21,973 nucleotides of DNA, taken from positions 1-21,973 of the IMG/VR virus record IMGVR_UViG_3300047374_000165; one strand, given 5' to 3'. Under the pieces are notes generated by a model. That model ran no database searches and was not told where the DNA came from. It saw only the letters and a list, made by a program, of their open reading frames with translations. This DNA comes from a virus. Within the stretch, counting starts at the first letter, position 1; every line of letters begins with the position of its first letter. Below are positions 10,447-19,641 of this stretch, in pieces. Position numbers and translations under genes: made by a program.

Positions 10447-10956
10447 ATGAAGACCTACAAAGGGCGATACAAGCCAAAGAACCCAGCGAAGTACGTGGGC
10501 GACGTGAACAACGTTGTGTATCGTTCTATGTGGGAACGTCACGTAATGAAGTGGTGTGATGATAGTTCAGACATCGTACAGTGGATGTCCGAAGAGTTGA
10601 TCATACCTTATATATGTGAGACGGACAACAAACCCCACCGATACTATATGGACTTCGTCATTCAGTACAAGTCTGGTCGCGTTGTACTTGTCGAAGTCAA
10701 ACCTCATAAAGAAACCAAACGTCCTGAGCGCAAACAGGGTAAGTCTCGTAGGACGCTCCTTAACGAAGGGATGACTTACATCAAGAATCAATCCAAGTGG
10801 AAGGCTGCATCCGAATACGCAAAGGATCGGGGATACCACTTTGAGATCTGGACAGAGAAAGAACTTACCGCCATGGGTATCATGCCCAAGCCTCTGCGCA
10901 CCAAAAAACCAATCAAGAAGTTGCCGCCCTTCAAAAAGAAGAAAAAACGCGTATAA
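10447..10956 (+). CDS. 4: Head completion nuclease-like protein gp4
   Basis: The 169-residue protein (T4 gp4: 150) has the family pattern MKTYKGRYKPKNPAKYVGD at the start, then YRSMWERHVMKWCDD and a PHRYYMDFVIQYKSGRVVLV segment. D69, E83 and K85 (MDF then VEVKP) form a PD-(D/E)xK-like arrangement, consistent with the endonuclease-like fold proposed for gp4/TnsA-type proteins. gp4 acts after DNA packaging to prepare heads for tail joining. The C-terminus is very basic (a run of KKKKKR). There is no clear Shine-Dalgarno before the ATG although the family N-terminus agrees with this start. The final GTA TAA is part of the next late promoter. Confidence 0.9.
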   Translation: MKTYKGRYKPKNPAKYVGDVNNVVYRSMWERHVMKWCDDSSDIVQWMSEELIIPYICETDNKPHRYYMDFVIQYKSGRVVLVEVKPHKETKRPERKQGKSRRTLLNEGMTYIKNQSKWKAASEYAKDRGYHFEIWTEKELTAMGIMPKPLRTKKPIKKLPPFKKKKKRV

Positions 10957-11577: not shown

Positions 11578-12200
11578 TGGCAGGCATAGAAGAATTAAAA
11601 AGTAAGCTAATCTCCAAAGGCGGATTAGCGATGAATAATCAGTTCCTGATCAACCTTCCGTCAATGGGCGGAACGGATGGACGTACGATGAATGTCCTCT
11701 GTAAAGAAGTAACTTTGCCTGGGAGACAAATACTTACGCTTGATAGACCCGTCGCGATGGTTCAAGAAAAAGTTGCGAACGGATTCGCAACAGAAGACGT
11801 ATCTATGACGTTTTACGTTACCAACGATTATGCTCCTAAAAAGTATTTTGATAAGTGGAACTCTAAAATAATTGTAAGAGAAAATGGACATTTACACGTT
11901 GGGTACAGAGAAAACTACTCTGAAGATATTATTATACGGCAATTAAAAAAACCTGTCGCCAGATTTGGTTTTGATTTAGGTCCTTTAGATTTTAACCTAG
12001 ATGTTCTAGGCAAATCTATATACAGTATAAAACTGATAAACGCATTCCCAACGTCAATAAGCTCTATCCCGTTGAGCAGTGATCAAGATCAGATTGTTGA
12101 ATTTTCTGTACAGTTTTCTTACACTGATTGGGAAGTAATAGAGAATGAAAAAGATGGATTGGTTCCAAGTATAGGTCTCAATCTTGGTGGTTTAATTTAA
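11577..12200 (+). CDS. Tail tube-fold protein, gp19/gp54-like (probable tube initiator)
   Basis: A 207-residue protein starting GIEELKSKLISKGGLAMNNQ, like the N-terminal helix of tail tube proteins, followed by CKEVTLPGRQILTLDRP (about 42-58), EKVANGFATEDVSMTFYVTN and a C-terminal QIVEFSVQFSYTDWEVI strand, all typical of the gp19-like tube fold. T4 gp19 has 163 residues; the major tube protein is normally encoded next to the sheath gene 18, which is not in this window. Sitting between late assembly genes and the hub chaperone/tape measure, it more likely plays the role of gp54, the protein on which tube polymerisation starts. Start overlaps the preceding stop (TAATG). Confidence 0.83.
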   Translation: MAGIEELKSKLISKGGLAMNNQFLINLPSMGGTDGRTMNVLCKEVTLPGRQILTLDRPVAMVQEKVANGFATEDVSMTFYVTNDYAPKKYFDKWNSKIIVRENGHLHVGYRENYSEDIIIRQLKKPVARFGFDLGPLDFNLDVLGKSIYSIKLINAFPTSISSIPLSSDQDQIVEFSVQFSYTDWEVIENEKDGLVPSIGLNLGGLI

Positions 12201-12215
12201 ATTATAGGATACATC

Positions 12216-12929
12216 ATGGCATTACCAAAACTAAACTCGTCACCGGCATATGGAATGACAGTTCCGTCCAGTAAACAGAACATCACATATCGACCATTTC
12301 TAGTTAAAGAACAAAAGAATCTATTGATTGCGCTTGAGTCTCAAAATCGCAGAGATATCCTCAGATCGATAATTCGCACCATCGAGTCTTGCGTAGAAGA
12401 ACCTTTGGATCATAAATTGACGACATTTGACGTAGACTATATGTTTACCAAGATTCGTTCTAAATCGGTAGGAGAAACTTCTAAGGTAAGCGTTTCTTGC
12501 AGTAATTGCGGAGAGCAAAATGAAGTTTCTGTAGAGTTGGACAATGTAGAAGTTACTGGAGGATTATCTCCGGCAGATGCTATCGTGTCAATTACAGATG
12601 AAGTATCTGTAAGAATGAAATATCCAACATACGATGAGTTTCTTTTGAACGAAAATTTGTCGGAAAGTTCTACAGTAGCTGAAGCTCTCATGCAGTTAAT
12701 CATTACTTGCATGGACTCTATTATGACCGAAGAAGAAAATATTTCGGTCAGAGATGAAACTAACGAAGACATTATGTCTTTTTTAGAGTCGATGACTTCG
12801 AGTCAGTTCGAAAAACTTTCTGATTTTGCGAATAACATTCCCAGTCTTACAAAAAACGTAGAGTTTAAATGCGAGTCTTGTGGCACTGATAACAATCACG
12901 TACTAAGAGGACTCGACGATTTTTTTTAG
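12216..12929 (+). CDS. 26: Baseplate hub/assembly protein gp26-like, with Cys-x-x-Cys pairs
   Basis: The N-terminus (MALPKLNSSPAYGMTVPSSK, then ITYRPFLVKEQKNLLIALES) is the signature of the T4 base plate protein family that includes gp26. About residues 60-90 give LTTFDVDYMFTKIRSKSVGE, also typical. Two Cys pairs, C95/C98 (CSNC) and C219/C222 (CESC), could bind one zinc ion. The 237-residue length is slightly above T4 gp26 (208). Good Shine-Dalgarno (AGGA) before the ATG. The frame ends in GAT TTT TTT TAG, where a -1 slip would bypass the stop and extend the protein by 61 residues (see the next two entries). Immediately upstream of the tape measure gene, it holds the position of a tail assembly chaperone. 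Confidence 0.88.
   Translation: MALPKLNSSPAYGMTVPSSKQNITYRPFLVKEQKNLLIALESQNRRDILRSIIRTIESCVEEPLDHKLTTFDVDYMFTKIRSKSVGETSKVSVSCSNCGEQNEVSVELDNVEVTGGLSPADAIVSITDEVSVRMKYPTYDEFLLNENLSESSTVAEALMQLIITCMDSIMTEEENISVRDETNEDIMSFLESMTSSQFEKLSDFANNIPSLTKNVEFKCESCGTDNNHVLRGLDDFF
12905..12926 (+). other. Putative -1 programmed ribosomal frameshift site
   Basis: T_TTT_TTT at 12920-12926 is a perfect X_XXY_YYZ slippery heptamer in the gp26 frame, directly before the TAG at 12927-12929. A Shine-Dalgarno-like AAGAGGA (12905-12911) lies eight bases upstream, the arrangement that stimulates -1 shifting in dnaX. A weak 6-bp hairpin (12949-12954 with 12968-12973) lies 22 bases downstream, farther than usual. 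Confidence 0.72.
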
Positions 12930-19239: not shown

Positions 19240-19476
19240 TTATGTTACTTTTTCACAATAGAGGGGTTGGATCTTTCGTTCAACAATCTCCATCGCACAG
19301 TCATTACTCGCAAAGACATTCCATGTTCCATCGTATTGACTGGCGATAGTAATCTCAAAGTCTTCTCCGTAGATGTCGTACGCTTCGAACTTGAACTCGT
19401 AGAAGATGTTAGGCTCTCCCAGAACCTCAACCAACTTTTCGTAGGACACATCAATGTATCCTTGTAAACAACTCAT
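19240..19476 (-). CDS. Hypothetical protein (78 aa) behind a structured leader RNA
   Basis: The product (MSCLQGYIDVSYEKLVEVLG, EPNIFYEFKFEAYDIYGEDF, then TWNVFASNDCAM) resembles in outline small phage proteins with a SYEKLVEVxGEP start and a beta-rich body; function unknown. Unlike its neighbours it has a leader of about 130 bases that folds extensively, and its Shine-Dalgarno (AAGAGG, five bases before ATG) lies in the 3' arm of a hairpin. This suggests that its translation is controlled. The stop lies just upstream of the next promoter. Confidence 0.75.
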   Translation of the reverse strand: MSCLQGYIDVSYEKLVEVLGEPNIFYEFKFEAYDIYGEDFEITIASQYDGTWNVFASNDCAMEIVERKIQPLYCEKVT

Positions 19477-19482
19477 AACAAC

Positions 19483-19606
19483 CTCTTAATAAAGAGTGAG
19501 GGGGAGAAGCAGTGAACAAAGTTCCTATTCTGACTCCAGATGTCTCAGAGAGACAAACAGTGAACCCGAAGGCTCCTAGTCGAGAGACCAGATCTCCCCA
19601 ACTCAC
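19483..19606 (-). ncRNA. Highly structured 5' leader RNA (riboswitch-like candidate)
   Basis: Reading the minus strand from the predicted start point: closing stem P1 = GUGAG, UU bulge, GGGGAGA (19606-19593) with UCUCCCC-CUCAC (19507-19496), 12 bp. Inside are five hairpins in a row: CUGGUC-UCUC-GACUAG (19591-19576), GAGCC-UUCG-GGUUC (19575-19562), UGUCUC-UCU-GAGACA (19555-19541), UCUG-GAGU-CAGA (19540-19529) and GAAC-UUU-GUUC (19524-19514). Linkers ACUGUU and ACUGCU follow two of them. A last hairpin CUCUU-UAUU-AAGAG (19496-19483) covers the Shine-Dalgarno and shares one base with P1. Two helices contain G-U pairs that would be A-C mismatches on the other strand. It matches no class I know. 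Confidence 0.65.
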
Positions 19607-19613
19607 AATACAT

Positions 19614-19641
19614 ATTATACTTGATTTGAAAATAAAGTCAA
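19614..19641 (-). promoter_or_regulatory. Sigma70-type early promoter for the structured leader
   Basis: TTGACT (19641-19636), a 16-base spacer and TATAAT (19619-19614) on the minus strand, with an upstream A-run (AAAAAAGTAC). The start near 19607-19606 coincides with the 5' side of the leader's closing stem. Confidence 0.82.

Follow-up and report, generated by a model that had tools for sequence, protein, structure and literature searches.

The window, that is, the whole stretch of DNA analysed here, is a 21,973-base IMG/VR record whose nearest annotated relative is Phage C48C1 of the Kyanoviridae. On its minus strand, a sigma70-like promoter is followed by a structured leader and by the gene for a 78-aa protein, which matched no Pfam or PHROG family and for which 25 relatives were detected among viral contigs. 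The window phage appears to carry one such leader, with plain leaders on the neighbouring genes. An initial annotation had described the leader as an undescribed RNA of five consecutive hairpins held by a closing stem, with a further hairpin covering the Shine–Dalgarno sequence of the 78-aa gene. The features of the locus are listed below in the direction of transcription.

19614..19641, minus strand: sigma70-like promoter, read directly (TTGACT 19641-19636, 16-nt spacer, TATAAT 19619-19614)
19495..19606, minus strand: whole leader element, predicted twin (Y-fused) junction; covariance model R2, 119 bits, the window being among the model's own sequences
19593..19599, minus strand: arm X1 (closing stem P1), 5' strand GGGGAGA; pairs with 19507-19501; A-U to G-C in L030
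19588..19591, minus strand: core strand CUGG of copy A; conserved in all leaders
19578..19585, minus strand: arm Y, 5' strand UCUCGACU, the copy A half; four compensatory pairs in alignment A1
19562..19575, minus strand: arm Z of copy A, a UUCG hairpin; compensatory A-U/G-C at two pairs
19558..19561, minus strand: core strand ACUG of copy A; conserved, the invariance being partly built in by the search patterns
19541..19555, minus strand: inner hairpin, serving as arm X in the second junction; compensatory changes at four pairs
19536..19539, minus strand: core strand CUGG of copy B; conserved
19529..19535, minus strand: arm Y, 3' strand AGUCAGA, the copy B half; partner of 19585-19578, a single base being bulged in the window
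19514..19524, minus strand: arm Z of copy B; C-G to U-A in L064
19510..19513, minus strand: core strand ACUG of copy B; conserved
19501..19507, minus strand: arm X1 (closing stem P1), 3' strand UCUCCCC; pairs with 19599-19593
19482..19496, minus strand: weak Shine–Dalgarno hairpin, found in the window and L028; outside the conserved element
19240..19476, minus strand: gene for the 78-aa protein; homologues occur with and without the leader

Folding of the window leader

The leader folds better than shuffled sequence, and it does so on the strand that had been proposed. The minus strand from 19606 to 19495 reaches -45.7 kcal/mol compared with a shuffle mean of -34.8 (z -3.51, equalled by 0/200 shuffles), whereas the plus strand gives a z of only -1.72 (12/200). 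For a longer, 173-nt piece of the leader, z is -2.53 and 3/200 shuffles are as good. The minimum-free-energy (MFE) fold of the minus strand contains the parts that had been read from the letters, namely the closing stem GUGAG-UU-GGGGAGA/UCUCCCC-CUCAC, the five hairpins, the C(UUCG)G loop and two occurrences of GUUCACUG; the TATAAT upstream of the leader was likewise confirmed. A tRNA or tRNA-like RNA was rejected, as ARAGORN gives 0 genes in the window.

The relatives point to a different arrangement. When the leaders kept upstream of 78-aa gene homologues are read side by side, the repeat AUCUGG...UAGG-hairpin-CACUG occurs twice, with a third copy in L011/L013. Each copy holds half of one arm, Y (GACU in copy A and AGUC in copy B), and the pairing of the A half with the B half (19585-19578 with 19535-19529) is nested, the two junctions sharing one helix back to back. 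This was evaluated on A1, an alignment of eleven distinct leaders made with MAFFT without regard to structure. In it the twin structure has 94.9% paired cells, both bases have changed in 12 pairs, and the covariation score is 0.229, compared with 0.130 +/- 0.011 for shuffled alignments (reached by 0/500). Sliding A1 by one column collapses this support. In A1, both bases have changed at four pairs of the shared helix, whose variants include UCCUGAUU/AAUCAGGA in L030 and CUCAAC/GUUGAG in L066 compared with UCCCGAC/GUCGGGA in L039. Furthermore, R2 finds two twins that were not in the model build, L157 (E 7.5e-11) and L273 (E 1e-6), with the unrelated shared helices GUGUUGUU/AACAACAC and AUUCGAUU/AAUCGAAU, respectively. 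The comparison shows the predicted structure of the window leader to be two copies of one three-way junction, in which the arms X, Y and Z meet at a core of CUGG/UAG/ACUG.

The five local hairpins are all present in the window MFE, but two of them, hairpins 1 and 4, are without any compensatory change among the relatives, and it is these two that the long-range shared helix replaces. A covariance model had been named in the initial annotation as a check on the fold; it was built and passed, with compensatory changes in P1 and in the hairpins. The energies lean the other way. By nearest-neighbour energy, the fold described initially has -44.5 in the window compared with -37.0 when the long-range helix is forced, and RNAalifold and single-sequence energies favour the local hairpins in most leaders, the window included; four of the 11 relatives (L066, L030, L039 and L040) reach the shared helix in their own MFE without its being forced. 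Since the energy model favours the local hairpins in the window, a switch between the local-hairpin and shared-helix folds is possible there. On this comparative evidence the leader is a real conserved RNA, but its predicted fold differs from the one first described, and it illustrates that a single-sequence MFE fold can miss the conserved structure.

The Shine–Dalgarno hairpin (CUCUU-UAUU-AAGAG) does exist, but its proposed function of sequestration fared less well: the hairpin is absent or weaker than 2 kcal/mol in most of the other leaders that could be compared, and its lack of conservation makes translational sequestration unlikely.

Leaders of the 78-aa gene homologues

Relatives of the window leader repeat the same layout of a promoter and a fixed spacing to the motif. 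The leader is kept upstream of the closer homologues of the 78-aa gene (L003-L009 and L014) and of L011, L013, L015 and L016, while L017-L027 have a short plain leader. Homologues that keep the gene and lose the pairing, a pattern initially named as evidence against the fold, are thus represented by homologues whose leaders are without the whole element; wherever the element exists, its pairing is kept. In L066 (7390-7830, minus strand) and L010, an HNH endonuclease gene lies between an intact leader and the 78-aa gene, and L064 has a short remnant resembling the HNH insert sequence in the same place.

Single, arrayed and permuted members

The motif occurs in about 150 IMG/VR contigs of uncultivated phages by our own count, with one to four copies per genome. 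The same junction is found on its own with X open, as arrayed copies, and as a circular permutation that opens Y and closes X. The single form was seen in L089 and L091, near relatives of the MSDQ gene, which have one junction rather than two, arm Y being closed as its own hairpin. A pattern search for this form returned 54 stretches, nearly all of them true members, and 38 single junctions give a covariation score of 0.636 compared with 0.192 +/- 0.016. A second pattern, in which the core and a UUAAGAG loop were required while X and Y were free to be unpaired, found 36 stretches. Among the 26 non-redundant members, X pairs with a mean of 4.19 compared with 1.07 when shuffled (the highest of 2000 shuffles being 2.42), and Y with 2.92 compared with 0.56 (highest 1.23). 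The facing bases between X and the core, which the pattern also left free, are A.A in 20/26 and U.U in 5/26.

In the last scan, CUGG was omitted from the pattern. CUGG (or CAGG) was still present in nearly all matches, either in its usual place or 3' of arm X; the latter position corresponds to a circularly permuted junction, with X closed into a hairpin and Y left open. The permuted form has a covariation score of 0.609 compared with 0.215 +/- 0.027, reached by 0/500 shuffles, and each of the models, R1 for single, R2 for twin and R3 for permuted junctions, recovers its own class. CUGG has changed to CAGG at least twice, in the third copy of L011 and in L289, by which the U.U facing ACUG becomes A-U; this weakly suggests that the core strands CUGG and ACUG may pair with each other. 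The arms are free in sequence and length, with 30-nt insertions in L231 and L238.

The search design affects some of these numbers. UAGG and CACUG were demanded by the patterns, so the invariance of these strands is partly an artefact. Members in A2 and A4 had passed a mild pairing filter and their percentages of paired cells lean upward, whereas the 26-member X and Y test was unfiltered. When the 4-mer beside arm Y was tallied blind, CTGG was the commonest (20/57, next best 2), although this count is noisy, arm Y often being only 3 bp. Pattern matches in L050, L052, L054, L058, L059 and L072-L085, and about six from the CUGG-free scan, were judged to be due to chance.

One large subgroup almost always has UUAAGAG as its Z loop, a sequence that the second pattern demanded, and a cyanophage-like subgroup has UUCG there; such a conserved loop could serve for docking. 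In L168, L171, L178, L192 and L200, tandem copies have a common outer X stem and local Y hairpins, and their Y strands fit both shared-helix twins and an open six-way ring.

Genomic setting of the motif

Among the 49 members examined, a promoter-like -10 box ends 13-17 nt before arm X in about 15, and a start codon lies 15-35 nt past the motif in about 20; several others start 2-10 nt past a stop codon. Many members begin 13-15 nt past a -10 box and stop 15-30 nt short of a start codon. Permuted members L302, L277, L278 and L289 lie between an ssb gene and uvsX/recA. The genes downstream are unrelated, comprising the 78-aa family, the MSDQ family, metalloprotease-like, HNH endonuclease and UvsX/RecA genes and many unknowns. 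Of these, the MSDQ family, which is a second family of small genes, and the metalloprotease-like and HNH endonuclease genes were met in a pattern search based on the repeat of the window leader. Because unrelated genes are also preceded by the motif, the element is not tied to the 78-aa gene.

Several contigs have further features near the motif. In L276, L279 and L301 the permuted motif is directly 3' of a tRNA-like 3' half (GGGGTTCAAGTCCCCACCACACTACA), and in L281 (3560-3740, minus strand) promoter, motif, promoter, motif and promoter follow one another within about 250 bases. A second conserved stretch, GGGTTGAAACCCGCAAGYCTWGCCCAAGTCGCWAGCAT, which looks like another structured RNA, is found just downstream of the motif in L227, L231, L238 and L273. 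Motif-bearing viral contig L236 also encodes a permuted, alphaproteobacterial-type tmRNA (12030-12375).

Database, genome and literature searches

At the gathering threshold, no Rfam 15 family matched the window element or the other twin, single and permuted loci scanned, and none matched the window leader at E values up to 10; L175 gave only two snoRNA matches, at 13 bits compared with cut-offs of 40 and 50. The hammerhead core is CUGAUGA/GAAA. The motif lacks the CUGANGA and GAAA strands that a hammerhead places around its three helices, and no match came from the hammerhead models of Rfam.

BLASTN of the window, L047, L176-like, L186, L302 and L278 motifs against phage isolates found no member; a match of the window in C48C1 was rejected as it covers the shared promoter stretch only and not the motif. 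Searches of the whole genomes of C48C1, the nearest isolate, and of Microcystis phage Mel-JY01, including the UvsX neighbourhood of the latter, found no motif, and the element is therefore dispensable. The motif was also not found at the phrog_2402 gene in Alteromonas phage ZP6 and Vibrio phage VP2. A genome scan restricted to a pattern for the cyanophage-like variant gave five matches in a Prevotella MAG, which were discarded as an unrelated dispersed repeat; this structured repeat (L067-L071, Prevotella sp. UBA2725) occurs in five or more places in the one MAG.

No description of the motif was found in the open-access literature. The lack of an Rfam 15 match and the strong covariation bear out the initial description of an undescribed structured leader RNA; the wider RNA family is likewise absent from Rfam 15, widespread and apparently undescribed.

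Discussion

We infer that the motif is not a switch hiding the ribosome site of one particular gene. A cis-acting module for processing or stability is in keeping with the motif's gene independence, with its placement where transcripts begin or between cistrons, and with the permutation that it tolerates, and the lack of conserved Shine–Dalgarno pairing counts for a module that is independent of the gene. The promoter-proximal, post-stop, ssb–recA and post-tRNA sites are furthermore locations at which the ends of RNAs are generated or shielded, which supports the same reading. From position and architecture, we consider a gene-independent, cis-acting transcript-processing or stability module to be a plausible description of the motif, held with about even confidence. 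Such a module would set the fate of the transcript that carries it: the RNA would be processed or protected at its 5' end or between cistrons, either by self-cutting or through recognition of the core by a widely conserved factor, for which a host ribonuclease or another RNA-binding protein would be a candidate. Against this counts the single leader in the window phage, as a general processing role would be used sparingly there; the absence of the element from C48C1 and Mel-JY01 and the energy preference for local hairpins in the window weigh in the same direction.

Self-cutting would be a special case of such processing. The motif may represent a new class of self-cleaving ribozyme, a possibility that we regard as tentative, in which a junction of ~50 nt, which exists in two circularly permuted versions and also as fused twins, would cut near its core and process phage mRNAs at 5' ends and between genes; the twin form would carry two active sites. 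A compact core, arms that are free and accept 30-nt insertions, and circular permutations are ribozyme-like traits that the motif shares, and they are suggestive only. The only natural RNAs stated to be known in circularly permuted versions are the hammerhead and twister ribozymes, 5S rRNA and group II introns (PMC10085705). Like the motif, hammerheads are found both in phage intergenic regions and as arrays (PMC3088659), and these parallels make a ribozyme a serious possibility. The likeness to hammerheads of types I, II and III is in the small three-way junction, the short conserved core, the free arms, the natural permutations, the phage intergenic sites and the tandem copies (PMC3088659; PMC10085705). 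Nevertheless, there are distinguishable differences: the core of the motif is CUGG/UAG/ACUG, and the twin form is fused. Neither hammerhead, twister nor any other Rfam ribozyme gives a match, and a ribozyme would not need the fixed promoter spacing of many members. Moreover, when ten similar candidates from a ribozyme-based search were tested by others, 0/10 cleaved (PMC10085705).

A ligand-binding riboswitch or aptamer, of which the twin would be a cooperative double form, is unlikely. The conserved core in 5' leaders, the tandem and fused copies and the chance that local hairpins and shared helix compete in the window are compatible with it, but the downstream genes are unrelated and mostly unknown, with no common metabolic theme, and the 11 leaders have no conserved terminator, Shine–Dalgarno platform or downstream hairpin. 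Many members also follow stop codons, and circular permutation is a further point against a riboswitch. Among structured 5' leaders, the manA and wcaG RNAs (RF01745, RF01761) of T4-like cyanophages are comparable (PMC2864571), but they differ in their downstream genes and gave no Rfam match to the motif at the gathering threshold or at E up to 10. The glutamine riboswitch (RF01739), a junction RNA known from cyanophages, occurs in viral contig L189 together with the motif; its match (10665-10716, minus strand) is apart from the motif, at about 460 bases.

Still less probable is a nascent-RNA element whose action on RNA polymerase would make the enzyme less prone to pause or terminate. The HK022 put RNA is structured, stands at the start of phage early transcripts and acts in cis with no gene-specific role (PMC9378689). 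The motif is alike in its structure, position and gene independence and would likewise act in cis, and RNA polymerase would be a target common to all hosts. However, many members follow stop codons or tRNAs rather than standing at operon starts, so that only the promoter-proximal ones fit; unlike put RNA, the motif is also permuted, and the known leader RNAs in Rfam give no match. An exonuclease-resistant RNA (xrRNA) was suggested by the tandem junctions and rejected on account of the circular permutation, which the direction-dependent ring of the xrRNA fold would not tolerate. Finally, control of 78-aa gene translation by a leader that hides the Shine–Dalgarno sequence is very improbable, since the hairpin, although present in the window and close relatives, is negligible or missing in most other leaders, the element also precedes unrelated genes, and some homologues of the gene lack it.

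As a strongly covarying RNA family in about 150 environmental phage contigs, the motif offers a new handle on phage transcript control. Natural circular permutation is rare among small RNAs, and a fused twin in which the cores complete each other's helix is unusual; together they make the family directly testable for catalysis or for ligand or protein binding. If the ribozyme reading is true, the motif would be a new self-cleaving ribozyme class that is widespread in environmental phages.
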